Below are positions 6,853 through 41,725 of a stretch of 64,000 nt of DNA, piece by piece. This DNA is from Leptolyngbya sp. FACHB-261 (lineage in GTDB: Bacteria; Cyanobacteriota; Cyanobacteriia; FACHB-261). Every line of letters begins with the position of its first letter. Positions within the stretch are counted from its first letter, which is position 1. Below the pieces are notes generated by a model, which was not told the DNA's origin, did no database searches, and worked only from the letters and a program-made list of their open reading frames with translations. The translations under genes were made by a program, and so were the position numbers. The stretch lies in the NCBI RefSeq assembly GCF_014696065.1, contig NZ_JACJPL010000027.1, forward strand, positions 558,001 to 622,000, given 5' to 3'.

Positions 6853-6942
6853 AGCTAACAGCGGGAGACGTAGGGCAGCCTCAGTAGTCTCATTTTAAAG
6901 AAACATTGCGGACCTGGTCGGTGGAATTCACCCCGGATTGCC

Positions 6943-7722: not shown

Positions 7723-8187
7723 CTAGCGGAATTGAGCGACCAGCTTGCTGACCGACTCTGGCGAGAAGTTGCCGCTAAATTTCTCATTGAGCATCTCGAC
7801 AAGCTCGTCATCTTCCAGATTCGGGTTGGACTTAATGGTCGTTTCCAACCATTCGCGTCGCTCACCGGTCAGACGGCTAAATTGATTATTGCGGGTTCCG
7901 GTTTTACCTCTACCAGGCCCTTTGCTGTAAGCTTTCCCCCCCCCATCTGCTGGCGCATAGCCTCTAGCAACAATCTTTTTAGCTGCCATGTAATCTGCTA
8001 ACTGGTGAGGCGATAGGCCCAGATCTTCCAGTCCATCTAGCACACTCTGGAGCTTGATGCCCTCTTCAATTCTGCCAGAGTCACGGTAAGCTGTCGGGAT
8101 GTTGATCTCGCTCTCGATCTGCTGGAGTTGCTCTTGAAGTCTACGGTACTGATCTAATTTGTCTTTGACTGTGGTCTTGGCAGCCAT
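7723..8187 (-). CDS. Unknown coiled-coil protein with basic Gly-rich linker
   Basis: I do not recognise a named family. The 154-residue protein has an N-terminal coiled coil (about 8-30, LDQYRRLQEQLQQIESEIN), a helical middle, a Gly/Lys linker with ADGGGKAYSKGPGRGKTG (about 78-96) and a C-terminal helical region ending SPESVSKLVAQFR. A coiled coil plus basic linker plus small terminal domain is the plan of H-NS-like nucleoid proteins, but no diagnostic motif is present, so DNA binding is speculative. The GGG codons form a run of nine C on the plus strand, prone to slippage. Confidence 0.6.
   Translation of the reverse strand: MAAKTTVKDKLDQYRRLQEQLQQIESEINIPTAYRDSGRIEEGIKLQSVLDGLEDLGLSPHQLADYMAAKKIVARGYAPADGGGKAYSKGPGRGKTGTRNNQFSRLTGERREWLETTIKSNPNLEDDELVEMLNEKFSGNFSPESVSKLVAQFR
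7936..7944. repeat. C9 homopolymer inside a coding region
   Basis: Nine consecutive C on the plus strand encode the Gly-Gly-Gly of the linker in the coiled-coil gene. Gain or loss of one base would truncate the C-terminal domain, so the tract could act as a phase-variable switch. Confidence 0.8.
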
Positions 8188-8786
8188 GTAGGTTAATCCT
8201 CTGGTGTAGCGTTAACGAGTTCTATAAGGTTATCAGAGTAATGACAATTTTAGCCCTCTTAAGTTCTAATTTGCCAACAGTTTGACAAGCAAAATAAGGG
8301 ATTCTCCTTAGAAAAAACAGACTCGATGATCAGCATCGCAGGCGTAGACAGAAGCTAGCTATAATTCAGTGCAATTCTGCCACCTAAGGTATCTCTCCTT
8401 TGGCAGAGCCTGTTACTACTAGCACAGCTTTTAGCACAAGCTAGGTTCCCCGTTGCTAGTACTGCTATCAAAAACTAGTGCTGCCTCAGGATAGAAGGGT
8501 GGTCTCAAAGCTTCGACAAGAGCCTTTATAGCTAGCTAAGGTTTCACTTGATACCACAAAATTCAGAAAAATGAACCGCCCAACTGGTTGAGAACAGCTG
8601 AAAGGTAATTGATGCGCGACATAGTAAAACTCAGCATCACACGCTGAGAGAGCAGACCAATAGCCCCACCAGCTTGTACAGCAGCGTACATACGCATAGA
8701 TATAGGCATGGATATAGATATATAGAGGTAGGTGAAGCAATTGCTACCCAACTGGAAGCTCAAGTCCAGCTAAAAACCTCAAGTAT
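8188..8786. other. Intergenic region, no gene supported
   Basis: About 600 bases upstream of the coiled-coil gene and downstream of the thioesterase. A small hairpin with CTGCCA at 8377 and TGGCAG at 8401 and several short TATAGATATA-like repeats near 8695-8730 are visible. No tRNA shape or convincing reading frame was seen on either strand. Confidence 0.5.
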
Positions 8787-9227
8787 TTAGCGAGCTAGAT
8801 ACTGATCGTGCCAGTCTCCAGTGCGCGGACGCTCATGCCAGGCAAAGGGTCTACCCTTCTCATCCAGTGCCACTAAAACCATTTCGCAAGCCACAATCTG
8901 GTTTGTTGCTGTAGGCGTTTCAGGATTAAAGACAAAAGCTTGTACTTCTACTGTTAGCGAAGTCCGACCCTCCCGTCGGACTCGGGTAAAAACCTCCACG
9001 ATGTCACCCTGATGGGCAGGCGAGTTAAAGACCATCTCCGAGATTTTCTTGGTAACTACAGATGCATGCTCCATGTGACAACGCCCAAACATCACAGCGG
9101 CATCATCAATCCAAGCCATGAGCTGGCCACCGAACAAGAAACCGTAGGCATTGAGTTGAGCCCCTCGGACCGTGGTGCGAAAAGAACGCAACCAACCATC
9201 CGCGAGTAGAGAGTCACTGTAGCGCAT
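8787..9227 (-). CDS. Hot-dog fold acyl-CoA thioesterase
   Basis: A 146-residue single hot-dog domain protein of the YciA/ACOT acyl-CoA thioesterase group. The signature NAYGFLFGGQLMAWIDDAA (about residues 27-45) matches the family's N-x-x-G-x-x-F-G-G-x-L-M-x-W-x-D helix that holds the catalytic Asp. The following strands TKKISEMVFNSPAHQGDIVE and GRTSLTVEVQAFV are the expected beta sheet. Such enzymes release free acids and CoA; acyl chain preference cannot be read. The gene is 13 bases downstream of the PII-like gene and probably co-transcribed with it. Confidence 0.85.
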   Translation of the reverse strand: MRYSDSLLADGWLRSFRTTVRGAQLNAYGFLFGGQLMAWIDDAAVMFGRCHMEHASVVTKKISEMVFNSPAHQGDIVEVFTRVRREGRTSLTVEVQAFVFNPETPTATNQIVACEMVLVALDEKGRPFAWHERPRTGDWHDQYLAR

Positions 9228-27233: not shown

Positions 27234-28313
27234 TTACCTTCTGAGTTCGCTGACTTGAACAGGTTCTTGAGCCGATGCCCCCGAGCCTACGAAAGATTCC
27301 ACTAGAGCTACATCGTCCGGGCTACCGATAATAAGCGGCGTCCGTTGATGGAGTTTCTTCGGGATCACGTCGAGCACGTTTTGAGTGCCAGTGCTGGCCC
27401 TACCGCCAGCCTGTTCCATCAAAAAGGCCATCGGTGCGGTTTCGTAGAGCAGTCTCAGCTTGCCATCGGGGTGACTTTCAGTGCCGGGATACAAATACAC
27501 CCCACCCAACATCAAAATGCGATGCATATCGGCCACCAACGCTCCGGAGTAGCGGGAGGTGTAGCCGGGGGTCCGGTGCAAATGCATAACATACTGACGA
27601 ATTGACTCTGGCCAAGAGCAGAAATTGCCCTCGTTAATGCTGTAGGTGTTGCCCGTCGATGGAACCTGAATATTCTCTTGGACCAGAATAAATTCACCCA
27701 AGCTGGGATCCAGGTAGAACGAGTGGACCCCCTTACCAATTGTGTAGACCAACACGGTGCCGGAGCCGTACAGGATATAGCCTGCAGCCAGTTGCTTGCG
27801 CCCGTCCTGCAACAGATCTAAGGCTTCGCCAGTTTCGTCATTGCCTTCTTGCTGACGCACCGAGAAAATAGAGCCAACCGCCAGATTCACATCAATGTTG
27901 GAGGACCCATCAATGGGGTCAAACAGCAAGGTGTAGCGTCCAACCGGGCAGTTTTCGGGGATGTAATAGGGTTTCTCCATCTCCTCTGAGGCTAGACGGC
28001 AGACTAAGCCACTCTGCTCCAAGGCGCGAATGAAGATCCGATTGGCGTACTGGTCCATCTTTTTGACTTCTTCGCCCTGCACGTTCACCGAGCCGGTTGA
28101 ACCAAGGGCATCTTCTACTAGACCTGAACGGCTGAGATGGCGAGAGATGAGTTTGCCTGCTAGGGCGATGCGCCCCATCAAAGCGCTGAGATCCTGCGCC
28201 TGAGCGTCATAACTGCCACCGCCCACTTGCTGTAGCACATGGCGTGACAAAGTCATCAGGTCACGGCTAATCGCCAGTTCCTGGGCAGGAGGTAGTTGCG
28301 TGTTATCCACCAT
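27234..28313 (-). CDS. fbp: Class I fructose-1,6-bisphosphatase
   Basis: This 359-residue class I FBPase removes the 1-phosphate of fructose 1,6-bisphosphate. The metal site [15 protein letters not shown], the SEEMEKPYY motif and the sugar-phosphate block [20 protein letters not shown] are intact. It is the first gene of fbp-tal-zwf-opcA. Cyanobacteria also use a bifunctional GlpX-type enzyme in the Calvin cycle; this class I form in an oxidative pentose-phosphate operon likely regenerates hexose phosphate for the cycle. Confidence 0.96.
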
Positions 28314-28919
28314 GGGGAAATGTAAAAGTTAAGAACAAAATGTCTTGAAATGTCTTGAAATGCCTAGGCTCAAGCCCGCCCCAAGAAATTACCAGTGAGC
28401 AAATGGCTAAGGCCAAATAATCCAGAAGCAAGTAGCCCAAAGCAAATAACCAAGTAGTAAGCCAGTTAAGACGAACAGCAAATAATCGGGTGACGGCGGG
28501 CAAGAACAACCTAGCTACTTGAGGCTAGCAATCTCAGGCTAGCAACCTTAGGACAGGGCCCGACTACACACCCCCATATCCCGATCTTAGGAAGCCCATC
28601 CTAAAAAAGGGCCGACTTCAAAGAAATTACAGAATTGCAAGCAGAAGTGAGCCAGTTTTCGAATTGGCTTTTGTGCACCCCCAAAGGGATGAGTTGATGG
28701 GTAAGGTTCGCTACCTATTTAGATAGATGCCGGATTCTTCGTCAGAACCCTGAAAGTATCGATAGTTCTAGCACCCAGCCTCTGGCAACAGTTAGGTAGG
28801 CACCGACAGCTGTAACGCGTGGCAGAGTCCTGCCACAAAAGTGACACAGGTGTGGCACTGCGATCCGGTTGAATTGCCTAAGGTGCGAGTGTGGGTCACT
28901 CACCCAGGGAGCTATCACC
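28314..28919. other. Divergent promoter region fbp / TPR gene
   Basis: About 600 bases between divergent genes. It holds short direct duplications (TGTCTTGAAA twice near 28340, GGCTAGCAA twice near 28525) and one consensus NtcA site at 28701-28714. A hydrophobic reading frame just upstream of fbp (28303-28509, minus) has no supporting feature and is not called. Confidence 0.5.
28701..28714. promoter_or_regulatory. Candidate NtcA binding site
   Basis: GTA-AGGTTCGC-TAC matches the consensus GTA-N8-TAC of NtcA, the cyanobacterial nitrogen regulator. It lies 388 bases upstream of fbp and 206 upstream of the TPR gene. No good -10 box is found about 22 bases away on either strand, so it could be chance. 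Confidence 0.35.
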
Positions 28920-29519
28920 ATGAAGGTTAGTCTTACTTCTACCCAATTTGGTTTGTCCCGGCCAGTCCAGCTACGGACAGGTCTGCGCATCCGTCGTCGT
29001 CCCCATGCACGGGTTTCATCCCTACACCAGCGTTCACTGTCTCGCCTGACGCAAATTCGCTTGCGTCGCTCGATTACCGCTCTCACCGAGCAAATCCAAA
29101 CCTGCCCCAGTGTCAGCCTCTACAACCAACGAGGCAATCTCTACGCCATTCTCGGCCAGTATAGTGATGCACTTACTGACTACGACGAAGCCCTCTGCCT
29201 AAACCCCGAGGACATCAGCACCTACATCAACCAGGGCATGATTTTCCGCCTTCTAGGCGAGTTTGAACTGGCAATCACCAGCTTTGACTACGCGCTCATG
29301 CTCTCGGAGCAGCGCAAGCTCAAGCCTGCACTGCTCAAGGCTCATGCCTACGCTGAGTCTGGCCTAGCTCGGCATCAGATGGGGGACTGGAACTTGGCTG
29401 CCGGTCACTACCGTCGAGCATTGGATTTGATTGAGGCCGATCAATCAGCTGAGGCCGAAGCGGTACGCCGTCGCGTTTATGCTCGTCTGGCCAGTATGGG
29501 CATTTTTCCAGATGCCTAA
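28920..29519 (+). CDS. TPR-repeat protein
   Basis: A 199-residue protein with a basic N-terminal tail (Arg-rich, about 20-50) and three tetratricopeptide repeats: SLYNQRGNLYAILGQYSDAL, STYINQGMIFRLLGEFELAI and a third with AYAESGLARHQMGDWNLAAG. TPR domains hold protein partners. ATG 28920 has GGGAG 9-13 bases upstream. It is a stand-alone gene; a partner cannot be deduced. Confidence 0.85.
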   Translation: MKVSLTSTQFGLSRPVQLRTGLRIRRRPHARVSSLHQRSLSRLTQIRLRRSITALTEQIQTCPSVSLYNQRGNLYAILGQYSDALTDYDEALCLNPEDISTYINQGMIFRLLGEFELAITSFDYALMLSEQRKLKPALLKAHAYAESGLARHQMGDWNLAAGHYRRALDLIEADQSAEAEAVRRRVYARLASMGIFPDA

Positions 29520-29784
29520 AGCCCAAACGCCTAGAGCCCGAAACACCGAAGGCCAAACTACCTGAAGCTCAAAATGCCTACAGCCCAAGTTCTCTGAAGC
29601 TCAAGGTGTTTGGAGTTCTGGAGGTAGCTATTTAAGATCCCCAAGGGCTTAATTGCCATCGGCTCCTGACAAGATTAGGGGACTTGACAACAGCAACCGT
29701 TGGCAAACATGGAAATAATGGAAGGAGCCTGTTCGAAAACCGGGCCAAAATAGTTACTCAGCCAACTAAATCCTTGAGGGTCCA

Positions 29785-31050
29785 GTGAGTCCAGAAGCCT
29801 TGGTCCAGCCCGTCTCTTTGCAACCAACCGCTCAACACCAAGCCTCTACTGAGGCGGAGCAGTTTGATGCCCATGTGATGACGACCTATGCCCGGTTCCC
29901 TGTGGTGCTGGAGCGTGGTGAAGGCTGCCGAGTTTGGGACACCGAAGGCCGGGAGTATCTAGATTTTGTGGCTGGAATTGCCACCTGTGCGCTGGGTCAT
30001 GCCCATCCGGCTCTGATTGATGCCGTGAGTCAGCAGATGCGCAAGCTGCATCACGTTTCCAATCTCTACTACATTCCCGAGCAGGGGCAACTGGCGCAGT
30101 GGCTGGTCGAACACTCCTGCGCGGACCGAGCCTTCTTCTGTAACTCTGGTGCAGAAGCAAACGAAGCTGCGATCAAGTTGGCCCGCAAGTATGCCCACAT
30201 TCAGCGGGGCATCAGTGAGCCGGTGATTATCACAGCCCTTGCTAGCTTCCACGGACGCACGCTGGCGACGATCACGGCTACAGGCCAGCCCAAATATCAA
30301 AAGAACTTTGACCCCCTGATGCCGGGGTTCCACTACGTCCCCTATAACGACTTGGCAGCTTTAGAGGCAGCAGTTGAAGCGCTAGAGGGCCGTGTCTGCG
30401 CCATTCTGCTTGAAGCTTTGCAGGGTGAGGGCGGTGTCCGTCCTGGCGACCGAGCCTATTTCCAACGCATCCGCGAACTCTGCAACGAGAAAGGGATTCT
30501 GCTCATCCTGGACGAAGTGCAGGTAGGGATGGGCCGTAGTGGCAAGCTCTGGGGCTATGAAAACCTGGGCATTGAGCCAGATATTTTCACTTCTGCCAAG
30601 GCCTTGGGCGGTGGCGTGCCGATTGGGGCCATGCTGTGCAAGGAGTTCTGCAATGTTTTCGGCCCTGGCGACCATGCCAGCACCTTTGGGGGTAATCCTC
30701 TTGCCTGCGCGGCTGGCCTCTGTGTTGCTCAGACGCTGGTCAGTGATGGCTTGATTGAGAATGCCGCAGAGCGAGGTGCTCAATTGCAGGCAGGTTTGAA
30801 TGAGCTGGTATCCCGTTTCCCGAATCTGCTTGATCACGCACGCGGTTGGGGTCTGATCCAGGGATTGGTGCTGAAAGAAGACAATGGCTTGACTGCACCG
30901 GCCTTGGTCAAAACTGCTTTGGAGCAAGGTCTATTGCTGGTGCCCGCAGGCCCCAAGGTAGTGCGCTTTGTGCCGCCGCTGATTGTCACGGCTGAGGAGA
31001 TCGATCGAGCGCTGACAATTGTGGCAGAAGCGCTAACGGCAATCGTGTAA
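29785..31050 (+). CDS. argD: Acetylornithine aminotransferase
   Basis: ArgD makes N-acetylornithine from the semialdehyde in arginine synthesis. The 421-residue PLP enzyme starts at GTG 29785. It has FVAGIATCALGHAHP, FFCNSGAEANEAAIKLARKY, ALLEALQGEGGV-type substrate contacts (ILLEALQGEGGVRPGD), ILDEVQVGMGRSG and the PLP Lys in TSAKALGGGVPIGAM. Length and motifs are complete. A perfect terminator follows the stop. Confidence 0.95.
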   Translation: MSPEALVQPVSLQPTAQHQASTEAEQFDAHVMTTYARFPVVLERGEGCRVWDTEGREYLDFVAGIATCALGHAHPALIDAVSQQMRKLHHVSNLYYIPEQGQLAQWLVEHSCADRAFFCNSGAEANEAAIKLARKYAHIQRGISEPVIITALASFHGRTLATITATGQPKYQKNFDPLMPGFHYVPYNDLAALEAAVEALEGRVCAILLEALQGEGGVRPGDRAYFQRIRELCNEKGILLILDEVQVGMGRSGKLWGYENLGIEPDIFTSAKALGGGVPIGAMLCKEFCNVFGPGDHASTFGGNPLACAAGLCVAQTLVSDGLIENAAERGAQLQAGLNELVSRFPNLLDHARGWGLIQGLVLKEDNGLTAPALVKTALEQGLLLVPAGPKVVRFVPPLIVTAEEIDRALTIVAEALTAIV

Positions 31051-31072
31051 GCGCATTTTTAGATAATGCTTA

Positions 31073-31104
31073 GGTGAGGGGCACACGTTTGTGTGCCCCT
31101 CACC
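31073..31104 (+). terminator. Rho-independent terminator of argD
   Basis: A perfect 14-bp stem (GGTGAGGGGCACAC and its complement) with a GTTT loop, followed by GTTTTAAAG. Confidence 0.9.
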
Positions 31105-31554
31105 GTTTTAAAGACAAAAAAGACAAAGAAATAGTCATCAGGCTCTCAGATTCTTGGAAGGTTTCGAATTGAAAGCAGCAAATTGAAGACAGCGATTGAA
31201 GGCAAGCTATCACTTATTCTGAAAGGCCAGATAAGCTTAAACCCAAGATTAGATCTCAAGCTTAGACCGCAACAGCAAGTCAGATAACAAGAGCTTCTTT
31301 AGACTGGATCCTTCGCTCTGGCCTCAAATAGCAGATCAAGATATTTTTCGACAACCATACTAGTTTTTCATAACAGTCTGAAGATCTAGCTAAAGCCTGT
31401 GGACATCGCAAGTCTTAGGCTAGCTTGGGGCTGCATTTGCCTATTTGTATTCGTTCACCTCTTAAGCGTTAAAGCAGGTGAACTCGCCTTGTATTTAACT
31501 TCACTACAGATCTAGTGACCTGAAATTGCACAAGACTTAGAAGGTCGGCAAGAG
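31105..31554. other. Intergenic region upstream of the dioxygenase-like gene
   Basis: About 450 AT-richer bases with no reading frame or RNA that I can support. It presumably holds the promoter for the gene at 31555. Confidence 0.5.
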
Positions 31555-32469
31555 ATGTCAAGCCTGATTCAGAAATCTCTCAAGCCCATCAGCACCCAAA
31601 ATTATCAAGGTTTGCTGCGACGAGTCCGGCAGAAAGTTTTACAACTCCCTTCAGAGTTTCGCTATCGGACAGAACTACTTAAATATGCCAGTCACCTGCC
31701 CAAGCTATCCGCAAGCGAGCATTCTATTGTTAATACCTTGCGGTCTGAGGGCGCTTACGTAACCTCGCTTGCGGCGTTGTCTCTGCCCTCAACAGCCCAA
31801 CTGTTGCAAGCAGCTTGCGGCTTGTTCCAGGAACTAGAAGCAAACCGAGTCACCAGGCGAGGTAGACATTCGGTTTATGCCACACCCGAACAGATCTCGC
31901 ATTATCCAGAGCTGTTTTTAGCAGGGCTGGATCAACAGCTTCTCAATATCGTTGAAACTTACATCGGCGTCCCTGTGGCCTATTTAGGCGTTTCCTGTCG
32001 CCGAGAAGTGGCGAATGGAAGGGAAGTTGCTACTCGCCTTTGGCATCAGGATCTCGAAGACCGCCGGATGATTAGAATTATTGTCTATTTAAATGAAGTA
32101 GACCAAGAGGGAGGACCCTTTGAATACATCGCCAAGAATTCTATTGCCCCTGTTCAATGGTTAAAGTATCATTCCCATCGCTTGCATAAAGCTTCGGTGG
32201 ATAGGGCAGTTAAGTCTGTAGTTCCCAGACAGGACTGGAAAGCTTGCGTGGGGCCAGCTGGCACAGTAGTTTTTGCGGATACAGGCAGCATCTTTCATCG
32301 AGGTAGATTGCCCGTTGCGTCAGAACGCAAGGCCTTGTTTTTTACCTATACGTCCAGGCAGCCGCTTAACTTAACCTATGCCAAGCAATTGCTCTCTCAA
32401 GAGCAGTTATTAACCCTAACCCAATCTTTAGGCCAACGCCAGCGAGACTGTGTGTTTTGGCAGGGTTAG
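31555..32469 (+). CDS. Phytanoyl-CoA dioxygenase-like Fe(II)/2OG protein
   Basis: A 304-residue protein with the jelly-roll iron site of 2-oxoglutarate oxygenases: H-x-D in RLWHQDLEDRRMIRI, then LNEVDQEGGPFEYI, and the distal His plus Arg in FADTGSIFHRGRLPV. This order is that of the phytanoyl-CoA dioxygenase group. The N-terminal 50 residues are basic and helical. Substrate is unknown. It is monocistronic by context, flanked by repeat-rich gaps. Confidence 0.75.
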   Translation: MSSLIQKSLKPISTQNYQGLLRRVRQKVLQLPSEFRYRTELLKYASHLPKLSASEHSIVNTLRSEGAYVTSLAALSLPSTAQLLQAACGLFQELEANRVTRRGRHSVYATPEQISHYPELFLAGLDQQLLNIVETYIGVPVAYLGVSCRREVANGREVATRLWHQDLEDRRMIRIIVYLNEVDQEGGPFEYIAKNSIAPVQWLKYHSHRLHKASVDRAVKSVVPRQDWKACVGPAGTVVFADTGSIFHRGRLPVASERKALFFTYTSRQPLNLTYAKQLLSQEQLLTLTQSLGQRQRDCVFWQG

Positions 32470-32478
32470 CACTTGAGC

Positions 32479-32524
32479 GACTAACTCCCCAGAAGCTAAC
32501 TCCCCAGAAGCCTGCTCCCCAGAA
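32479..32524. repeat. Tandem repeat, three 15-16 bp units
   Basis: Three near-identical units ending CTCCCCAGAA (32479-32494, 32495-32509, 32510-32524) directly after the dioxygenase-like gene. Confidence 0.85.
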
Positions 32525-32639
32525 GGGACTGGCTCTCTAGAGAGCATCTCGTTGACCTACCATTCTTCCTGCGCAGATTTTTTGAAGCTTCTCTTGGTTT
32601 CTTTAGTACGTGCAAGTCCAACAAGATCAAGTTTCAGCC

Positions 32640-32785
32640 CTGCCAATTTAAAAGCTGCCCTGCCAACATTAAATATTGGCGCGGTCAAACTAAAAGTTAG
32701 CGCGTCAACATCAAATGTTGGCCCGACCGATCTAGCTCCAGCCAGACCAAACCAGAAATTGGTGGGCTTCAACTAAAAGCTGGCT
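32640..32785. repeat. Run of short palindromes in an intergenic gap
   Basis: At least three small palindromes follow one another at about 20-28-bp spacing: one starting GCCAACATT at 32662, CTAAAAGTTAG at 32690, and CAACATCAAATGTTG at about 32706. A weaker related element with CCAGAAATTGG lies near 32752. Reading frames on both strands here are by-products of this repetition. Confidence 0.6.
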
Positions 32786-32959
32786 GGAGGCAAGCAGATT
32801 TCAGACCCATTCCTCCAGCAGTGGTTTGGGAGGCACTGCTTCAGGGGCCGGTTGACTCAATGCTGGTGGGCAAAGAGCTGCCAAAGACTTTGCCAAATCA
32901 AGTCAAATAGCTCCCGGTCAATTTCCTGAGGCGAAGTGAGCTAGAAGGGCCAGCTTGAC

Positions 32960-33610
32960 TCAGGCAGAAAAGGCAATCGGCGGGGAAGCCGGATTAGTAG
33001 GCGGCTGGGTTGGTGCTTTGGTGCTTTGGCGCGAACGGCTCATATGTTGGGCCAACAGCAGTAAACTACGCGCTACCGAGCGGCGCTCCTGCGTATTCAC
33101 GCCAATCACAGGCGGGCAGGTCTGCCGATCAAAACCTAGAGCCAACAGCAGTTCTACCGGTGGCCAAGCATCCGGTGAGTCGAGATGGGTAAGCCCAATG
33201 ACGCAGGGAGACAGGGTGCGCTCACTCATGAAGCGGTGAATGTAGCGGGCCGTCTCAAACTGAGCCGGTCGATGTGCAGCCACCAGCAGCACATAGCCAT
33301 GCGCTCGCTGGATCAACAGGTCCCACATAAAGTCAAAGCGCATTTGCCCCGGTGTGCCATAGAGATGAACCGCCATGCGAGGGTTTAGCGTAATGCGACC
33401 AAAGTCCATGGCCACTGTGGTTTCGGGTTTTAAGCGACGCGTAGCAGGCGTACAAGCTTGGCGCTCGGTGCGCACGACCTCGATCTCACTGGTGGTTTCA
33501 ATGTAGGTCGACTTACCTGCGCCGACTGGACCCGTAATCACCACTCGCAAAATTTGGCTGAGAGCACGAGGCTGAGCAGAACCTGGTTGAGAGAGCGGTA
33601 CAGCCGACAT
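32960..33610 (-). CDS. Small Ras-like GTPase (COG2229/CvnD type)
   Basis: A 216-residue G protein with P-loop GPVGAGKSTYIETTSE (about 27-42). The G3 region is HLYGTPGQMRFDFMW, in which the usual Asp of D-x-x-G is replaced, as in CvnD-type proteins. G4 is GLTHLDSPDAW in place of N-K-x-D. A Ser/Pro-rich tail of about 25 residues follows. It belongs with the Streptomyces conservon GTPases and MglA relatives, switches that work with roadblock-domain partners. Its ATG overlaps the stop of the PATAN gene by one base, so the two are translationally coupled. Confidence 0.85.
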   Translation of the reverse strand: MSAVPLSQPGSAQPRALSQILRVVITGPVGAGKSTYIETTSEIEVVRTERQACTPATRRLKPETTVAMDFGRITLNPRMAVHLYGTPGQMRFDFMWDLLIQRAHGYVLLVAAHRPAQFETARYIHRFMSERTLSPCVIGLTHLDSPDAWPPVELLLALGFDRQTCPPVIGVNTQERRSVARSLLLLAQHMSRSRQSTKAPTQPPTNPASPPIAFSA

Positions 33611-34509
33611 CAGGCAACTCCTTTAAGAAAATCGACAAACGCTCGCAGAATTGGCACTTGCTCACCTTGCTCACTTTGACTGGTACTGCCAGGCTCATTG
33701 CCTGGCACACTAGCTAGCCCCTGGCGGTCTTCTACACAAGGCACAGGCAAGTCAGGTGGCATTCCAGGCAGCACCAAAGGCTTGGGCGAATGAATGGACC
33801 GAGCAAAATCTTCTTGAACCAGATCGAGCACTTGGAGCCGAAAGATCGCCTGTCGAATCTGCTGACCAGAAACTGGCATTCGACGCTCCAGCTCACTAAC
33901 CTGGCAGCAAGGATCTAACTGCTGCAAAACCTGACGCTCTAGAGAGTTGAGCCGCAAGCTGGGATTGGAAGCAGGCTTAAGGCGAACCACCGCCCCCGGC
34001 GCTAACAGCTGATGTTGCAGGGCTTGCCAGTCCTGCAATTGGCGTAGACCTAGAACCAGCGCCTCTCGACCCCGCAGGCTCAACCCTGTCAACTCCGAAC
34101 GAGGGGCAGCTTGCCGCTCCTCAAAACGGAACCACCCGGCTGAAGCCGAGAGCAAGCGATTAAAGCTGTTACGCAATTGCAAACTGAACAGCAATTGCAG
34201 ATGTTCGGGCAGGAGAATGCCCTCGGTCTTAAGGGCCATCCCAAGAGGCACAGAGCTGCGCGCGAGCTGGCGCAGCAAGCCCACCTGGTGTTGATGGATC
34301 AAGCAGCGCTGGGCCATAAGTTTGACCAACGCGGAGGGCTCCCCCTGCACAGTGCTCGCCACGACATGTCCTTCTCGAAACCAAATCAGAAGCGTGGGTT
34401 GAGGAGCCTGAGGCAATTGAACTGCTAGACGGCCTGTTTTTACTCCCCGGTCGAGCAGTTGAACTAGTTGTGTGAACTGATAGTCTTTCAGATCGCCACA
34501 GACAGGCAT
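33610..34509 (-). CDS. DUF4388/PATAN domain protein
   Basis: A 299-residue protein beginning with a PATAN/DUF4388 domain: GDLKDYQFTQLVQLLDRGVK, TGRLAVQLPQ, LLIWFREGHVVAS. PATAN domains occur in cyanobacterial response regulators that control phototaxis and type IV pili. A winged-helix-like region follows (LERQVLQQLDPCCQVSELER, QIRQAIFRLQVLDLVQEDF), and then a disordered Pro/Ser tail. ATG 34509 is chosen because the domain begins at once after it and nothing upstream is conserved-looking. It has no receiver domain and is coupled to the GTPase gene. Confidence 0.8.
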   Translation of the reverse strand: MPVCGDLKDYQFTQLVQLLDRGVKTGRLAVQLPQAPQPTLLIWFREGHVVASTVQGEPSALVKLMAQRCLIHQHQVGLLRQLARSSVPLGMALKTEGILLPEHLQLLFSLQLRNSFNRLLSASAGWFRFEERQAAPRSELTGLSLRGREALVLGLRQLQDWQALQHQLLAPGAVVRLKPASNPSLRLNSLERQVLQQLDPCCQVSELERRMPVSGQQIRQAIFRLQVLDLVQEDFARSIHSPKPLVLPGMPPDLPVPCVEDRQGLASVPGNEPGSTSQSEQGEQVPILRAFVDFLKGVA

Positions 34510-35366
34510 GGCGTACCATCTCAGGGTTTGCAAATGTAACCACGGCACCGAATTGCGCCAAGCAGCCCCAATGAGCCGACCTTGACGCAAATCATTGACG
34601 TAAATCAGGCGCTCAGCCTATCACCATGAGCCAATTGCACCCTTGTAGTCTCTTGTAGGCGCCATCTTGTAGGCACCACTGACCCAGCCACTCATAATCT
34701 TAAAGGTCGGAAAGACTTTAAGCCGGGTAGAGCGGCTTACGAGCAGAAGCACCCTTTACTCTGCATCCTGCTCTTTGCAAAATTGTAAAGCTTGTCACGT
34801 AGCTTAACAGCCAGCAGTAGTGACGGCAAGAGTTAAACACAAAAAGTTGAGGGTTTCATACCCAAGTAACGCTCTTATAGGGAAATATTCCGTCAGAGTG
34901 GAAGTTAAAAAATCAGTTTTGGTGGCTAGGCCCTGATCTCCAGAAATCGACTTCCGGTCAATCTGAAGCAAACCGAAAGATTCCTGCCGCAGTTGCAATT
35001 CTGAACGATTTGCAACAGTATATTGAGCCTGTTTTTCCTGATTGCGAAACCCAAGACTGAACAATAGGGTGAGGCATCCTCAAAGCGAGCCAAAGCGCTG
35101 CAGTTCGCCTCCATAGACGTTTAGAAAACTGCGTTTTGGCTGATTAAGGGCTGACTACTGCATTAGATTGAGTCAGGTCATTTAGGTGTGCATCAACCCG
35201 TGATAGCGAGCACTGAAACGTCTAATAGTTCAAGGCCAAGAAGAGCGCCTTGCGTTACCTCATGGCCCAGAATCTGCAGTTATTGAATTAGACTTTTCTG
35301 CTGCGGCATCAACCGCAACAAATACAGACATAGTCATCTATTCCCTCTCAACTCAGGACCCCCTCA
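34510..35366. other. Intergenic region between PATAN and roadblock genes
   Basis: About 850 bases. A 13-base near-duplication CTTGTAGGCGCCA / CTTGTAGGCACCA lies near 34652-34680. A minus-strand reading frame at 34804-35064 has no protein-like feature and is not called. Promoters for both divergent genes are expected here but not resolved. Confidence 0.45.
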
Positions 35367-35735
35367 ATGATTAATGCAAATGCTCTGTTGACTGTGCTGC
35401 GAAACTTCGTCAGTGGCACCCCAGATGTTCAAGGCGCAGTCTTGGTAACCCCAGACGGCTTGCCTCTGGCCGCTTCACTACCCGGTGGCATGGACGAAGA
35501 GCGCACCTCAGCAATGTCAGCGGCCATGCTCTCCTTGGGAGAGCGGATCGGGGCTGAGTTAGCACGTGGCGTTGTCGAGCGCATCTTTGTGCAAGGCGAA
35601 AAAGGCTACGGCATTCTGGTGGGCTGCGGGAGCGAGGCAGTGCTGCTGGTGCTGGCTGGCTCCTCAGCTAAGCAAGGGCTTCTGTTTTTGGAAATCAAGC
35701 GAGTTGTCACCGAACTAACAGTTCTCATGGGTTGA
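35367..35735 (+). CDS. Roadblock/LC7 domain protein (MglB/CvnB-like)
   Basis: A 122-residue single roadblock domain: an N-terminal helix ALLTVLRNFVSGTPDVQGAV, then LVTPDGLPLAASLPGGMDEE, the long helix TSAMSAAMLSLGERIGAELA and a final strand-helix EAVLLVLAGSSAKQGLLFLE. Bacterial members (MglB, CvnB) act as GTPase-activating or docking partners for Ras-like GTPases. It lies between two such GTPase genes, which supports a shared pathway. Confidence 0.9.
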   Translation: MINANALLTVLRNFVSGTPDVQGAVLVTPDGLPLAASLPGGMDEERTSAMSAAMLSLGERIGAELARGVVERIFVQGEKGYGILVGCGSEAVLLVLAGSSAKQGLLFLEIKRVVTELTVLMG

Positions 35736-36240
35736 GGTCTGAGGGGCTGAGATCTGAGGGGTTAAAGTCTGATGGGTCAAGGCGGCTTCTAAGGCTCCCG
35801 CTCTGGCTAATGGCTCTAAGCAACTTAAACTGGGCAACTTAAGACCTAGCAACTGGGGGAGCACTTTCCCCCGGTGACTAAGCAGGCTCTTGTCCAGCAG
35901 ATTGACCTCCTTCTGCAACCCATGCCCCTCTGCACTGGGTGGACCTTGCACTGAGTGGACCTCCGGCTCTCTCCGGCGGCCTTTGATTTTTTGTTACTTG
36001 AATTCCAACTGGTCAACCAGGGTCATAAGATCAGTCTGCTTATGTTTAAATCTCGGGGCGCACTGAATATAGTGTCGCAAGATATAGCGTCGCAAGCGTC
36101 AACGTAGCACTTCCCCTTTTGCTGGCAGAGGTGGAGCCAGCTATCGGCACAAACACTAAGCTACAGACACTAAGCCATAGACACTAAGCCACCAGCATCT
36201 CTGTTGCAACCTCTCGTCAGTTTTTGAAAGGGAAGGCCGG
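35736..36240. other. Repeat-rich gap between roadblock and second GTPase gene
   Basis: About 500 bases with many short duplications: TCTGAGGGG twice near 35737, GGACCT-containing units near 35940, ATATAG-GTCGCAAG twice near 36068, and a 14-bp triple repeat at 36153. No gene is supported. Confidence 0.6.
36153..36194. repeat. 14-bp tandem repeat, three units
   Basis: Units ACACTAAGCTACAG, ACACTAAGCCATAG and ACACTAAGCCACCA lie head to tail about 50 bases before the second GTPase gene. Confidence 0.9.
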
Positions 36241-36774
36241 ATGACCGTTCTGCGTATCGTCGTGACGGGGACTGTAGGTTCGGGCAAGACAACCTTTATT
36301 CGCTCAATCAGTGAGATTGAGGTCGTTGACACTGACCGCACAGCAACTGACGTAACAGCTCAATTGAAGTCGCAAACTACAGTAGCCCTCGACTTTGGCC
36401 GCATGACCATTCCACCCGGTCTGTCACTCCATCTGTATGGCACACCGGGTCAACCCCGCTTTGATTTCATGTGGGACATTCTGATTCGCAAGGCCCACGC
36501 CTACGTTCTATTAGTAGCAGCCAATCGTCCTGACCACTTTCGGCTCGCTCACCAGATTCTCAGCTTCATGCAGGAACGCTCAAAGCGTCCCATGTTGATT
36601 GGCCTGACCCACACTGACTGTCCTGATTGCTGGACTGAGGAAGACCTGACACTCGCCTTGGGCTACGGCGAACAGTACCCACCCGTCGTGATTGTCAATC
36701 CAACTCAGCCGGAATCAGTCCATGCCATGCTGCTCAAACTCACTGAGTTGACGACCGCTCAACCGTCTGTGTGA
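36241..36774 (+). CDS. Small Ras-like GTPase, second copy
   Basis: A 177-residue paralogue of the GTPase at 32960-33610, without its Ser/Pro tail. P-loop is GTVGSGKTTFIRSISE. G3 is HLYGTPGQPRFDFMWDILI, again lacking the Asp. G4 is GLTHTDCPDCW. The two share most core positions, including SEIEVV and FDFMWD. It lies on the same strand as the roadblock gene, 505 bases downstream. A role in a polarity or motility-type switch is inference from MglA/CvnD relatives. Confidence 0.87.
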   Translation: MTVLRIVVTGTVGSGKTTFIRSISEIEVVDTDRTATDVTAQLKSQTTVALDFGRMTIPPGLSLHLYGTPGQPRFDFMWDILIRKAHAYVLLVAANRPDHFRLAHQILSFMQERSKRPMLIGLTHTDCPDCWTEEDLTLALGYGEQYPPVVIVNPTQPESVHAMLLKLTELTTAQPSV

Positions 36775-36845
36775 TTTGAGATCTGGCCTACACGTGTCCA
36801 GCTCACCGAATGTATGGCTCAGCGATGTATAGCCTACCGAACGAC

Positions 36846-37316
36846 CTAAGGCGATTGGGGTTGCAGCAGCGCCATGATTTTGTCGCGATTCTTCTGAATC
36901 AAGTCCTGCTGCTCTGGCCAAAACAGCTTCGGCATCGTGTCCAGTGGCGCCCAAGCCAGCTTGTAATGGTGCTTGGGGTCGGTCGGAACGCCATCAACTT
37001 GTTCGGTCAAGAATAAGAAGTAATGGGCCGTGATCCAGCGACGCTTGCGATAGTCAAGCCGTTCTCGTACATCGAGCTTGCTAATCAGTTGCAACTCGGT
37101 CAGGCCAGCTTCTTCTTGAATTTCGCGCCAGGCTGCCTGCTCCAGAGTTTCACCCGCTTCTACACCACCCTTCGGTAGAACGTAATGGTAGAGCCCAACC
37201 TCGCGCACCAGAGCGATATAGATTTTTCCACTTTCGATGCGGACGATCACGCCGCCAGAGGTGGTCCGTTCAGCAATGCTAGCGGGGCGTTTGTACCAGC
37301 TTTCATCGATGCGCAT
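36846..37316 (-). CDS. Nudix hydrolase
   Basis: A 156-residue Nudix enzyme with a complete box: YVLPKGGVEAGETLEQ followed by AAWREIQEEAGL. The LPKGG start is like diadenosine polyphosphate or diphosphoinositol phosphate hydrolases rather than ADP-ribose ones. ATG 37316 is preferred, with GGAG about 9 bases upstream; a longer frame to 37421 would overlap the macro-domain gene. It is 61 bases downstream of the macro-domain gene and probably co-transcribed. Confidence 0.88.
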   Translation of the reverse strand: MRIDESWYKRPASIAERTTSGGVIVRIESGKIYIALVREVGLYHYVLPKGGVEAGETLEQAAWREIQEEAGLTELQLISKLDVRERLDYRKRRWITAHYFLFLTEQVDGVPTDPKHHYKLAWAPLDTMPKLFWPEQQDLIQKNRDKIMALLQPQSP

Positions 37317-37377
37317 AGGCTTGAGTCTCCGCACAAATTTGAACCAGCGTTTGAACGACTTTCGAAGCTTCCCTGAA

Positions 37378-37899
37378 TCAAACTTGAAAAATTTCGGCAA
37401 CAGCCGCTTGATAGTGGCCATAGACCCCGTTGTTAAAACAAACCACTATAACCTGGTTGAGCGAACGGTTGCGCTCCAGAGCCGCCTTGATTTCAGTGAG
37501 GGCAATTCTACAAGCTTGTTCAATTGGAAAATTGTAAACCCCTGTACTGATCGAAGGGAATGCTAGACGGCTCAGAGTGTATTGTTCTGCTAAGGCAAAA
37601 CAACTCTGGTAGCAATGCGCTAACAGCTCGTCCTCATTAGCGGTGCCGCCCTGCCAGACCGGACCGACGGTATGAATAACCCAACGGGCAGGCAAGTTAT
37701 AGCCACGCGTAATTTTGGCTTGGCCCGTGGGGCAACCTCCCAAACTACGGCACTCGGCCAGAAGTTCGGGGCCAGCAGCGCGGTGAATAGCCCCATCAAC
37801 GCCGCCTCCGCCCAGCAGAGAGTTATTGGCCGCGTTGACAATGGCATCTACGCTTTGCTGGGTAATGTCGCCTTGCGTGATCGTTAGTTTCTCTAGCAT
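37378..37899 (-). CDS. Macro domain protein, O-acetyl-ADP-ribose deacetylase type
   Basis: A 173-residue macro domain (YmdB/MacroD type): ITQGDITQQSVDAIVNAANN, SLLGGGGVDGAIHRAAGPEL (the ADP-ribose and catalytic loop), YNLPARWVIHTVGPVW, and LAFPSISTGVYNFPIEQA. Such enzymes remove acetyl from O-acetyl-ADP-ribose or ADP-ribose from proteins. ATG 37899 is preferred over the TTG at 37929. Pairing with the Nudix gene downstream suggests linked nucleotide salvage, which is inference. Confidence 0.93.
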   Translation of the reverse strand: MLEKLTITQGDITQQSVDAIVNAANNSLLGGGGVDGAIHRAAGPELLAECRSLGGCPTGQAKITRGYNLPARWVIHTVGPVWQGGTANEDELLAHCYQSCFALAEQYTLSRLAFPSISTGVYNFPIEQACRIALTEIKAALERNRSLNQVIVVCFNNGVYGHYQAAVAEIFQV

Positions 37900-37957
37900 G
37901 CCTTTACCGCCGTTTTGATCGATACTCAAGTTCTGTATCGAGTTCTGTATGAACCTG

Positions 37958-37988
37958 AAGACTCAATCTCTAATTAAGATTGAGTCTT
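37958..37988. promoter_or_regulatory. Perfect 12-bp inverted repeat between divergent genes
   Basis: AAGACTCAATCT, a 7-base centre CTAATTA, and the exact complement. It lies between the macro-domain gene (minus) and the methyltransferase gene (plus). A shared operator is more likely than a terminator as no gene ends here. Confidence 0.6.
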
Positions 37989-38092
37989 GACAAGTTAGTG
38001 CATTGGTTCCGCGACTGTCGCCCAATCTTCCCGGTTGGGGGTCAGTGTGTCAATTCTCACTTTAAGCATCTAACCCTGTACAACAGCGAGTA

Positions 38093-38728
38093 ATGGCGAT
38101 GGTCAATCAGTGGACTCAGGCAGAGCACGCATTGGGATATCTGTCTCGTGCTGAACAACTGCCTCACCGTCTTGAAGGCGAGGCCGTGCTACTTGAGCAA
38201 ATCCCCAGAAATGTCGAGCGTGTTCTGGATCTGGGTACTGGCGATGGTCGGCTCCTAGCGCTAGTGAAGCGGAAATGCCCTCACACCAAGGGCGTGGCGC
38301 TCGATTTCTCCCCGGCGATGCTACAAGCTGCCCAAGCCCGCTTTGCTGATGACGCAACCGTCGAAATTGTGGCGCATGACTTCGATCAGCCTCTACCACC
38401 TCTGGGCTGCTTTGATGTGGTGGTGTCTAGCTTTGCGATTCATCACTGCCCCCACGAACGCAAGCGCTCTCTCTACGAGGAAATCTTTGACCTTTTGGAG
38501 CCCGGCGGCGTGTTTTGCAACCTAGAACATGTTGCCTCGCCCACACCTGCTCTGCACGAACGCTTTCTCTACGCCATCGGCCAGAGCCCCCACACTGACG
38601 ACCCTTCCAATAAGCTGCTGGATGTGGAAACGCAATTAGGCTGGTTGAGACAAGTCGGCTTCGCGGATGTCGATTGTTATTGGAAGTGGTTAGAACTAGC
38701 ACTGTTGGTTGGCGTTAAACCGGCCTGA
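38093..38728 (+). CDS. Class I SAM-dependent methyltransferase
   Basis: A 211-residue methyltransferase with motif I ERVLDLGTGDGRLL (about 42-55), GVALDFSPAMLQAAQARF, the motif II region FDVVVSSFAIHHCPHERKRS, and LLEPGGVFCNLEHV. The His-His-Cys after the AI loop is typical of small-molecule methyltransferases of the UbiE-like group. Substrate is unknown. It is divergent from the macro-domain gene. Confidence 0.85.
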   Translation: MAMVNQWTQAEHALGYLSRAEQLPHRLEGEAVLLEQIPRNVERVLDLGTGDGRLLALVKRKCPHTKGVALDFSPAMLQAAQARFADDATVEIVAHDFDQPLPPLGCFDVVVSSFAIHHCPHERKRSLYEEIFDLLEPGGVFCNLEHVASPTPALHERFLYAIGQSPHTDDPSNKLLDVETQLGWLRQVGFADVDCYWKWLELALLVGVKPA

Positions 38729-39031
38729 AGCCCCACTCTATACTGCTAGTTTACGACTGATTAATCACCTAACTAACAGGCCAGCTAACGGTCCAGCTAA
38801 CGGTTCAATCGTCAGCCTTCGTCAGCCTTGAAAAGGTGCTTTTCAAGGCAGCCCAACTTCGGATGGACACTCAATAAAGGTCTAAAACCAAGACTAAAAT
38901 AAAGGCCAAGAAGTATTATGATTCTTGATGGATTTTGATAATCAATGTTTAGCTCATTGATTCATCTCAATTCATCCATCTCAGTTTGTCTATCTCACTC
39001 CATTATTTTACGGGGCTTGTAGCGATCCACT
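38729..39031. other. Intergenic region upstream of dapL
   Basis: About 300 bases with duplications (CAGCTAACGGT twice near 38783, CGTCAGCCTT twice near 38811) and AT-rich sequence before dapL. No gene or terminator hairpin is clear. Confidence 0.5.
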
Positions 39032-40270
39032 GTGGCAACCATTAACGATAACTACCTCAAGCTTAAAGCCGGTTACTTGTTTCCAGAAATTGCTCGACGA
39101 GTCAATGCCTTTGCGTCAGAAAATCCTGATGCCAAAATTATTCGGCTGGGCATCGGTGATGTGACTGAACCGTTGCCGGAAGCTTGCCGCACGGCCATGA
39201 TCAAAGCTGTTGAAGACATGGGCGAACAGGCCAGCTTCAGAGGTTATGGCCCAGAACAGGGCTATGCCTGGTTACGCGAGAAGATTGCGACGCAAGACTT
39301 CCAAGCACGGAACTGTGCGGTCGAAGCAGAGGAAATTTTCGTCTCCGACGGCTCCAAGTGCGATTGCGGCAATATCCTCGACATCTTCGGTGACAACAAT
39401 ACCATCGCCGTCACTGACCCTGTTTATCCTGTGTACGTGGATACGAATGTGATGGCAGGGCATACGGGACTTGCCAATGAACAGGGCGAGTTTGAGGGCT
39501 TAGTGTATTTGCCAATCACGGCTGACAACAATTTCACGGCTCAAATTCCCACGCAGAAAGTCGATTTGATCTACCTCTGCTTTCCCAATAACCCAACGGG
39601 AGCCGTTGCTACACGGGAGCACCTGAAAGCCTGGGTCGATTATGCCAGAGCTAATGGCTCAATCATCTTCTTTGATGCCGCCTACGAAGCCTTCATTACC
39701 GATCCAGATCTACCCCATTCAATCTATGAGATTGAGGGGGCCAGGGAATGTGCAATTGAGTTCCGCTCGTTCTCGAAAAATGCAGGTTTTACTGGCACTC
39801 GTTGTGCCTTTACTGTAGTACCCAAAGCCCTCACGGCAAAAGCAGCCGATGGCTCGGATGTAGAACTTTGGAAGTTATGGAACCGACGCCAGTCGACTAA
39901 GTTCAATGGCGTGTCCTACATCGTTCAACGCGGTGCGGAAGCCGTTTATTCCGAAGAAGGACAGGCGCAAACCAAAGCCCTGATCCAGTTCTACATGGAG
40001 AATGCTCGCATCATTCGTGAGCAACTCACAGCTGCTGGCATAGCCGTCTACGGCGGTGTGAATGCGCCCTATGTTTGGGTCAAAACACCTGCTGGTTTGT
40101 CCAGTTGGGAATTTTTCGACAAGTTACTGCATACCTGCAATGTGGTCGGCACGCCAGGCTCTGGCTTTGGTGCCGCAGGTGAGGGCTACTTCCGCATTTC
40201 GGCTTTCAATAGCCGCGCAAATGTAGAAGAGGCTATGAAGCGAATCACCGAGAAATTCAAGGCTTCTTAG
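39032..40270 (+). CDS. dapL: LL-diaminopimelate aminotransferase
   Basis: DapL converts tetrahydrodipicolinate directly to LL-diaminopimelate, the short lysine/peptidoglycan route of cyanobacteria and plants. The 412-residue PLP enzyme starts at GTG 39032 ([20 protein letters not shown]). It carries [42 protein letters not shown] and the PLP Lys in [16 protein letters not shown]. Length is typical and a terminator follows. Confidence 0.96.
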
Positions 40271-40282
40271 TGTCAAAGCTTG

Positions 40283-40301
40283 GGGTGGGCATTGCCCACC
40301 C
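40283..40301 (+). terminator. Terminator hairpin after dapL
   Basis: An 8-bp GC stem GGGTGGGC / GCCCACCC with an ATT loop, 12 bases after the stop, followed by a short T-containing tail. Confidence 0.65.
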
Positions 40302-40353
40302 TTCCTGATTAACCTAGTGGTGTAACTCTGATGGCTGATTGTCAATTCTCGTT

Positions 40354-41007
40354 ATGACTGCTGCCCTCCCTATTGTCAAACCTGTTAGTCGAATGAGGCT
40401 GGCTCCTGGTAGCGCCGTGACGATTCCAGATGTTAGTTGGCAGGAGTTCGAGGCGATTTTGCAGGAGTTGGGTGAAAGACGAGCCGCACGGGTTGCCTAC
40501 AGCCAGGGCACGTTGGAAATCATGGTTCCTCTACCTGAACACGAAAGGCCGAAAGACTTAATTTCAGATATTGTAAAGAGTTTGCTAAAGCTAGCAAACA
40601 AAGGGTACGAACCATTTGGTTCAACAACTTTTAAGCGGGAAGGTACGGCAGGAGTTGAGCCTGATGCTTGCTTCTATATACAGAATTATCAGCGCATGAT
40701 TGGTCGCCGTAGGCTCCAATCGGATGACCCACCTCCTGATTTGGCTATCGAGACAGATGTAACCTCAAGAACAACTCTCGATGCCTACACAGCTATTGGA
40801 GTTCCAGAAGTGTGGATCTACAGCGCTGGAAAATTAATTATCTATTTACTTCAAAATGAAATATATGTAGAGTCTGCTACTAGCCCTAACTTCCCGAACA
40901 TACCAGTTACTCAACTTACTCCTATTGCAGTAGAACGTACTTGGCAGGTTGGAAGTGTTCAAGCACTAGAGGAATTTGAAGCAGCGGTCACTAAGATTAT
41001 TCATTGA
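40354..41007 (+). CDS. Uma2 family (DUF820) protein
   Basis: A 217-residue Uma2 family protein. Visible marks are RMRLAPGSAVTIPDVSWQEF, GTLEIMVPLPEHERPKDLI, VEPDACFYIQ, PDLAIETDVTSRT and YTAIGVPEVWIY, the last matching the family Y-x-x-x-G-V-P-E-Y-W block. The PD-(D/E)XK residues are intact (PD, E). ATG 40354 is preferred over an in-frame TTG at 40339. It is unrelated in detail to the first Uma2 gene of the window. Confidence 0.9.
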   Translation: MTAALPIVKPVSRMRLAPGSAVTIPDVSWQEFEAILQELGERRAARVAYSQGTLEIMVPLPEHERPKDLISDIVKSLLKLANKGYEPFGSTTFKREGTAGVEPDACFYIQNYQRMIGRRRLQSDDPPPDLAIETDVTSRTTLDAYTAIGVPEVWIYSAGKLIIYLLQNEIYVESATSPNFPNIPVTQLTPIAVERTWQVGSVQALEEFEAAVTKIIH

Positions 41008-41081
41008 GCCTAGTAGCATGAACCCTATCTAATCTTGAGCCTCGACATTTATCAATTGAAGAAAGCGCCGTAATGACAATT

Positions 41082-41121
41082 AAACAGTAAGGCAGCCATC
41101 ATTGCGGCTGCCTTACTGTTT
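41082..41121. terminator. Bidirectional terminator
   Basis: A perfect 16-bp stem starting AAACAGTAAGGCAGCC, 8-base loop, with A-run and T-run at the two ends. It serves the convergent Uma2 and HdeD-like genes. Confidence 0.9.
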
Positions 41122-41146
41122 ATTCAATTATCGAAGCCAAAGTAAC

Positions 41147-41725
41147 TTAAGCGGAAGCGGTCTGGTCAGGCTGACTTGGAGCAGGATTGGCATTCAACGC
41201 CAGCATCACGCGGGAGAAGCCAGTGGAAAGAATGCTAGCACCGACTGCTGTACCAAGGAGCCACGGAGCATTGGTGGGCCAGCCAAACCAGATGAAGGCG
41301 CCTAAAGCTAGGGTCACGATACCGTCAACCAGTACCCAGAACCAGTTGGGGTTATGACGCAACCGGAAGGCCAGAATCAAGTTAAACGCGCCTTCGGCCA
41401 ACAAGAAGCTACCGAGCAGCAGGGTCAGGGTGAGAACGCCTGTGAGGGGGTTCGTAAACAGCATTACACCCGTTCCGATGTAGAGAATGCTCAGGACCAG
41501 CTTCCAAACGAAGCCGCCTTGGTCACGGGTTTGGAATGAGTAAAACAGCTTAGCAGAGCCCGTAGAAATCAAGATTAAAGCGAGCCAAGTCTCTGCGACA
41601 AAGGTTGAAATATTGGGCAGGACAATGGCAACGAGCCCTAAAACGATCAGGAGCGCACCCGTCCAGATCGAGGTATGAGTATCACGTTTGAGATTGGGAG
41701 AATCAGGAGAAACGTTAGTTGTCAT
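41147..41725 (-). CDS. HdeD-family (DUF308) membrane protein
   Basis: A 192-residue protein with six membrane helices in the DUF308/HdeD pattern of paired hydrophobic repeats: ALLIVLGLVAIVLPNISTFV, LALILISTGSAKLFYSF, LVLSILYIGTGVMLFTNPL, LLGSFLLAEGAFNLILAF, LVDGIVTLALGAFIWFGWP and a last helix near VGASILSTGFSRV. HdeD of enteric bacteria takes part in acid resistance at high cell density; the cyanobacterial role is unknown. Confidence 0.88.
   Translation of the reverse strand: MTTNVSPDSPNLKRDTHTSIWTGALLIVLGLVAIVLPNISTFVAETWLALILISTGSAKLFYSFQTRDQGGFVWKLVLSILYIGTGVMLFTNPLTGVLTLTLLLGSFLLAEGAFNLILAFRLRHNPNWFWVLVDGIVTLALGAFIWFGWPTNAPWLLGTAVGASILSTGFSRVMLALNANPAPSQPDQTASA

Follow-up and report, generated by a model that had tools for sequence, protein, structure and literature searches.

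Among the closest described systems to the gene cluster considered here are the MglA/MglB polarity switch of Myxococcus, in which a roadblock dimer controls a small GTPase acting on type IV pili, and the actinobacterial conservons (CvnA-D, mfp), which also bring a roadblock protein and a small GTPase together in one cluster with a sensory input. MglB has both GTPase-activating (GAP) and guanine nucleotide exchange (GEF) activity, according to the available parts of PMC11016934 and PMC10933270. Wuichet and Sogaard-Andersen (2014, PMC4316618), in the part of their article that was available, name cyanobacteria for MglA Group 5, describe PATAN genes as occasionally linked to MglA Groups 1 and 5, and cite an earlier roadblock-PATAN gene link (Makarova 2006, cited here through PMC4316618). 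The cluster described here lies at positions 32960-36774 of a 64,000-nucleotide stretch of Leptolyngbya sp. FACHB-261 (NZ_JACJPL010000027.1, positions 558,001-622,000; the whole stretch is called the window), and encodes a roadblock protein, two MglA-like small GTPases and a PATAN/winged-helix protein. It is best explained as the second copy, rearranged and diverged, of a cyanobacterial switch module composed of roadblock, MglA-like small GTPase and PATAN/winged-helix proteins, which in most relatives is linked to a gene for a sensor-type protein. The four genes, all intact, lie where a preliminary description made from the sequence alone had placed them, and the features are as follows:

32960..33610, minus strand: GTPase 1, MglA-like small GTPase of 216 amino acids (PF03029 ATP_bind_1, E 1.5e-12).
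33610..33610, minus strand: one-base stop/start overlap (TGATG) of the PATAN and GTPase 1 genes, read from the sequence.
33610..34509, minus strand: PATAN (DUF4388) and winged-helix protein of 299 amino acids from ATG 34509 (PF14332 DUF4388, E 2.3e-20).
33616..33654, minus strand: C-terminal helix of the PATAN protein, residues 286-298, of FVDFLKG type (sequence conserved among relatives, and model).
33796..34023, minus strand: winged helix of the PATAN protein, at residues 163-238 of the model (VIA-align matches).
35367..35735, plus strand: roadblock/LC7 protein of 122 amino acids (PF03259 Robl_LC7, E 2.1e-16).
36241..36774, plus strand: GTPase 2, MglA-like small GTPase of 177 amino acids (PF03029 ATP_bind_1, E 1.7e-12).
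36607..36618, plus strand: THTD, a variant of the guanine motif G4 in GTPase 2, with His replacing Lys, common to the cyanobacterial members (motif alignment).

The linkage was counted at 48 distinct cyanobacterial GTPase loci: the window, 27 loci of a phylum survey (among them a further copy on another contig, C26, of the same genome, locus L112), 14 of a search for relatives and six named loci. The scan of genome contigs covered the best 80 of 587 loci; L184 and L196 (copies of L033 and L036) and L180 (without a GTPase) were left out of the 48. The roadblock gene adjoins the GTPase gene in 45 loci and the PATAN gene in 44, and the three roadblock gaps (L035, L186, L194) are near contig ends. 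As the three gene types recur jointly in nearly all of the relatives' loci, the observation goes beyond chance, and the roadblock-GTPase-PATAN linkage in cyanobacteria is close to a rule, a near-fixed module, compared with the occasional PATAN linkage given for MglA Groups 1 and 5 in the available part of PMC4316618. The neighbourhood survey proposed in the preliminary description finds the roadblock/GTPase/PATAN switch module again in relatives, so that the lack of co-occurrence named there as refuting does not apply to these three gene types; the two-GTPase arrangement does not recur, the window being the only locus of the 48 with two GTPases. Within a sample of 292 genomes, the GTPase was found in 25 (weak matches in G008 and G036 excluded), and all 25 had a roadblock match over the cut-off (Fisher 7e-24, shared ancestry ignored); weak roadblock matches elsewhere in the class were limited to G095, G097, G133 and G237 (two over the cut-off). 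Roadblock genes are also present in 19 genomes that belong to other classes. An MglA-like GTPase near PATAN or roadblock genes is a module kind already described; its constancy in cyanobacteria, the THxD motif and the sensor linkage are new with respect to the literature searched. A HisKA_3 kinase and a LuxR-type response regulator precede the roadblock gene on the same strand at 11 loci (L113 5293-7172 and ten more), and are treated as family-level synteny, not as module core, because all 11 belong to one family (f7).

Clustering of the genes flanking the GTPase loci gave three sensor-type families: protoglobin (B), a V4R/Bet3-fold protein (X) and hemerythrin (H). The protoglobin gene (184 amino acids, PF11563) is present in 31/48 loci, on the module strand in 30 and divergent in L037; the protein of L112 matches PF11563 over the cut-off (E 2e-20), and the motif R..[IV]G..H, whose His we take to be the haem-proximal ligand, is present in all 30 globins inspected. 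Protein X (155 amino acids; 17/48 loci) gave no Pfam match for the two members scanned and is, by its AlphaFold2 model (predicted local distance difference test score, pLDDT, 77.5), of the V4R/Bet3 fold: Foldseek related it to the phenol sensors MopR/PoxR, to Bet3 and to TRAPPC3 (E 2e-6), VIA-align gave Z 15.6 (root-mean-square deviation 2.7, 143 residues aligned), and H-NOX followed more distantly. Hemerythrin (PF01814) was found in 5/48 loci, and at least one of the three types in 40/48. We read this linkage as a haem- or ligand-sensing input to the GTPase switch, as predicted from gene neighbourhoods; it hints at the kind of signal to which bacterial switches of this type respond.

The same association appears at the level of genomes: protoglobin occurs in 24 of the 25 GTPase genomes and in 5 of the 267 others (Fisher 3e-29, shared ancestry ignored), and each of those 24 has a copy beside a module. 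Six genomes carry a second protoglobin away from the module, and the three inspected (G072, G231, G064) have no module genes adjoining it. The only strong protoglobin of the class in a genome without the GTPase is that of G245, where a decayed module remains (kinase, unrelated gene, truncated PATAN, V4R and protoglobin genes; no roadblock or GTPase). The V4R protein is found in 13/25 GTPase genomes and in three others (G062; G070, broken; G245), and the globin of L131 resembles a Pseudomonadota subtype and not the other cyanobacterial globins. Gene orders differ between genome groups with the linkage kept (R, roadblock; G, GTPase; P, PATAN): B-R-G-P, R-G-P-B, R-G-P-X-B, X-R-G-P-B, P-G-R-B and R-B-P-G. 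Because gene positions vary in this way, a simple inherited order does not explain the sensor linkage. Outside cyanobacteria, protoglobin adjoins the module in 7/74 loci of three phyla (five in Pseudomonadota, one in Caldifarciminota and one in Caldisericota, the last globin without the His motif). A literature search, with most subscription journals outside it, found among its top-ranked matches no link of protoglobin or sensor globins with MglA, roadblock or PATAN; PMC5862535 has no mention of roadblock, globin, GTPase, MglB or DUF4388, and the available part of PMC4316618 none of a sensor globin or V4R partner. The wider proposal of a signalling family in which stand-alone protoglobin, V4R or hemerythrin proteins would act through a Ras-like GTPase/roadblock pair on a PATAN/winged-helix protein, in cyanobacteria and three other phyla, with the window as a lineage-specific two-GTPase derivative, seems to us evenly balanced between true and false.

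Two further loci show variants of these arrangements: the L136 module (5160-9165) runs on one strand and contains, besides the roadblock, protoglobin and GTPase genes, two PATAN genes in tandem, and L199 (5293-8851, genome G072) has a second cluster of PATAN, V4R and roadblock genes, without a GTPase, adjoining several receiver-domain proteins in a row. At L134 and L199 the module is flanked by a receiver-domain regulator of about 395 amino acids; its N-terminal part is presumably PatA-like, and Pfam gave the receiver domain only (E 1e-5).

The host genome (cyanobacterial, 6.9 Mb) contains three such GTPases, three roadblock genes and eight DUF4388 matches, and its family (f1) has no second member among the genomes searched. 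The C26 copy has the more typical arrangement, with roadblock, protoglobin, PATAN and GTPase genes on one strand; its protoglobin gene (L112 11012-11566), between the roadblock gene and the PATAN-GTPase pair, is the sole protoglobin match of the genome. The third roadblock gene (C18) is an orphan with no module gene adjoining. The window, with roadblock, GTPase and PATAN genes side by side, is one of the eight loci of the 48 without a sensor gene. Its PATAN protein and GTPases look fast-evolving, with long end branches: 3.78 for PATAN, compared with 0.77 in C26, and 1.17 (GTPase 1) and 0.86 (GTPase 2), compared with 0.31 (quick trees, in which long branches may be misplaced). GTPase 1 groups with the C26 GTPase in the protein tree (85-87% in the Shimodaira-Hasegawa-like approximate likelihood ratio test, SH-aLRT), whereas by DNA identity GTPase 2 is the closer to it (71.7% over 424 bp, compared with 66.6% over 371 bp for GTPase 1); the two measures thus disagree on the order of the GTPase duplications. 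The window roadblock protein is 86% identical to the orphan C18 protein and 78% to the C26 one, and the three group together (85% SH-aLRT, quick tree), which would fit a lineage-specific duplication. Two other observations belong here: immediately downstream of the module on C26, a ComFB-like gene (L112 8488-8850) scored 23.4 against a Pfam cut-off of 25, had no recurrence in the neighbour clusters listed and was not used; and at C24 (L202), an orphan V4R-fold gene (6546-7073) is convergent to a large MHYT-PAS-GAF histidine kinase gene (3705-6428).

Among the known systems, MglA Groups 3-5 with coupled MglB come close to the GTPases described here. Both window GTPases have the P-loop GxxxxGK[ST], GTPGQ in G3 and the Thr in G2 (TTVA) of MglA Groups 2-5, with GPVGAGKS, YGTPGQ and THLD intact in GTPase 1 and GTVGSGKT, YGTPGQ and THTD in GTPase 2; the two proteins are 55-57% identical. 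The roadblock protein carries PDG, with the Asp-Gly pair that the available part of PMC4316618 describes for the MglB partners of the same groups. According to the same part of that article, the Group 1 MglA of Myxococcus differs in its intrinsic arginine finger and TVPGQ, and Group 5 keeps [NT]KxD in G4, whereas none of the 49 cyanobacterial rows retains the Lys (THxD in 41, SHxD in 7, TYxD in 1). Chloroflexota have NKQD in 23/24 rows. A sequence search of solved structures with GTPase 2 returned Arf-like chains only.

The preliminary description had called the module conservon-like and its GTPases CvnD-type, and neither label holds. The roadblock family of CvnB (PF03259) is present in the window, but conservons have a NIT/HATPase kinase and DUF742 where this module has PATAN/winged-helix proteins, joined in relatives by globin or V4R proteins that are encoded separately. 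DUF742 (CvnC, PF05331) gave no match in the four window proteins and the ten neighbours scanned (27234-41725), and the positive controls were found (L105, E 5.5e-35; L109, E 8.3e-34), these being two of the four actinobacterial loci compared and verified as full conservons (kinase and DUF742). No histidine kinase is encoded among the same ten neighbours, as the preliminary description had observed, and no DUF742 or CvnA-like gene was seen among the identified recurrent neighbour families of the cyanobacterial modules. The G4 motif is THxD, not the NxFD of CvnD GTPases of the Group 2 clade, and the GTPases of cyanobacteria fall into a single clade (SH-aLRT 99), separate from that of the four actinobacterial loci (SH-aLRT 100). 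Conservon identity was rejected on these four grounds: kinase, DUF742, G4 motif and GTPase clade.

The AlphaFold2 model of the PATAN protein (mean pLDDT 86.0) consists of a PATAN domain, a winged helix and a C-terminal helix. VIA-align related the winged helix to one chain of the GATOR1-KICSTOR complex (Z 9.6), a likeness confined to the wing region, and to the winged helix of the 39-kDa subunit of RNA polymerase III (Z 8.9); such likeness of a modelled fold does not show shared function. A structure search with the full protein matched the winged-helix part only, leaving the PATAN domain's own fold without a match, and a sequence search of the protein against solved structures gave none. Small GTPase, roadblock, V4R/Bet3 fold and winged helix are also brought together in Ragulator/GATOR1, TRAPP and their Asgard relatives (PMC10933270, available part), but sequence identity is very low, only two parts were compared, by predicted folds, and the PATAN domain was not matched to a longin domain. 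The phototaxis regulators PixG, PixE and LsiR (PMC7690835, available part) share the PATAN domain, but they have a receiver domain (PATAN-REC), whereas the window protein has none and carries the winged helix and C-terminal helix. PATAN-REC response regulators bind PilB1 in Synechocystis, according to the available parts of PMC7690835 and PMC9090330. The role of sensor that the preliminary description had assigned to the PATAN protein is weakened, because separate sensor-type proteins are encoded in the cluster in 40/48 loci; the likelier role is that of an output arm.

The reading that we favour, and place somewhat on the probable side, is that of a second-copy switch module with a sensor-fed roadblock/GTPase step and a PATAN output. 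On binding a gas or small ligand, the sensor would alter the roadblock/GTPase step; the roadblock protein, which like MglB probably forms a dimer, would set the nucleotide state of the GTPase (as GAP, GEF or both); the GTP form would bind the PATAN/winged-helix protein, for which the C-terminal helix is a candidate docking element; and PATAN would relay the signal, with the type IV pilus motor as the most plausible target, by analogy with the PilB1-binding regulators. In the window the GTPase is duplicated, one copy overlapping PATAN and the other lying downstream of the roadblock gene, and the input is expected to be either a sensor shared from the C26 copy or something else. Sensing is attributed to the window copy from its relatives and the C26 copy, because it has no sensor gene of its own; as it is also derived, the C26 copy and the relatives offer the best ground for studying the linkage.

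Several points weigh against this reading. Adjacency of sensor genes is not function; eight of the 48 loci have none of the three sensor types, and tblastn found no protoglobin, V4R or hemerythrin relics in the window better than E 0.05. Protoglobin adjoins only 5/34 Pseudomonadota and 0/25 Chloroflexota loci. The reading also takes on assumptions: haem binding by the module protoglobins is predicted from their sequences, and the output to pili is put forward by analogy. THxD is an unusual guanine motif, with which GTP binding is a prediction. No pilus or chemotaxis genes are present among the ten neighbours scanned around the window copy, and its long branches may reflect relaxed constraint and not a new function.

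The last point leads to the alternative that survives best, a decaying duplicate: a C26-type module that was duplicated, lost its sensor and is drifting without a function of its own. The branch lengths and the missing sensor gene favour it, as do the orphan C18 roadblock gene, which shows scattered module parts, and G245, an example of a whole module decayed. Against this, none of the four frames is broken, P-loop, YGTPGQ and THxD persist in both GTPases, the PATAN-GTPase overlap is preserved and the PATAN model is of high confidence; we regard decay as unlikely. Less probable again is a lineage-specific cascade, in which GTPase 1 with PATAN and GTPase 2 with the roadblock protein would act mutually or on one output, on the model of MglA and SofG, which both act on Myxococcus motility (PMC4316618, available part); two different GTPases have remained linked and intact, each on its own strand with a different partner, but the arrangement stands alone among the 48 loci, and the genomes searched include no other f1 member in which its conservation would show. 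That the cluster is a genuine conservon-type G-protein system from which the histidine kinase was lost could draw on the shared roadblock protein and small GTPase and on the kinase and LuxR-type regulator genes of the 11 f7 loci, but is highly improbable given the absence of DUF742 and of a kinase from the proteins scanned, the separate GTPase clades and a THxD motif where Actinomycetota have N-type motifs.

To our knowledge, little has been established about the signals of bacterial MglA-like GTPases except in Myxococcus and some actinobacteria, and for many single-domain sensor globins no partner is known. The linkage unites both questions in a few genes whose products lend themselves to purification and to assays with oxygen, nitric oxide and carbon monoxide. 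If the sensor-fed switch is true, it supplies single-domain sensor globins with a partner and gives a chemical input to roadblock GTPases. Through the V4R/Bet3-fold neighbour, a single bacterial cluster also unites roadblock, GTPase and Bet3-fold proteins, a point relevant to how the TRAPP and Ragulator GTPase platforms of eukaryotes arose.

Within the window cluster, the one-base overlap of the PATAN and GTPase 1 genes noted in the preliminary description is confirmed (TGATG at 33610), a ribosome-binding-like AAAGGAG precedes the GTPase 1 ATG, and an identical overlap is present in the C26 copy and in L037, L119, L190, L191 and L193. The longest PATAN frame has 326 amino acids (from TTG 34590), and an alternative start is possible; 33610-34509 was taken because homologues start at the residue that aligns with ATG 34509. 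The roadblock and GTPase 2 genes are separated by 505 bp and therefore need not share one operon. A promoter and terminator scan gave 3 and 5, respectively, close to the 2.1 and 5.0 obtained with shuffled sequence. None of the ten neighbours scanned looks related to the switch (FBPase, TPR protein, two aminotransferases, NUDIX, Macro, methyltransferase, Uma2, DUF308 and one without a match). Past GTPase 2, on the minus strand, the Macro-domain (37378-37929) and NUDIX (36846-37421) genes overlap by 44 bases.

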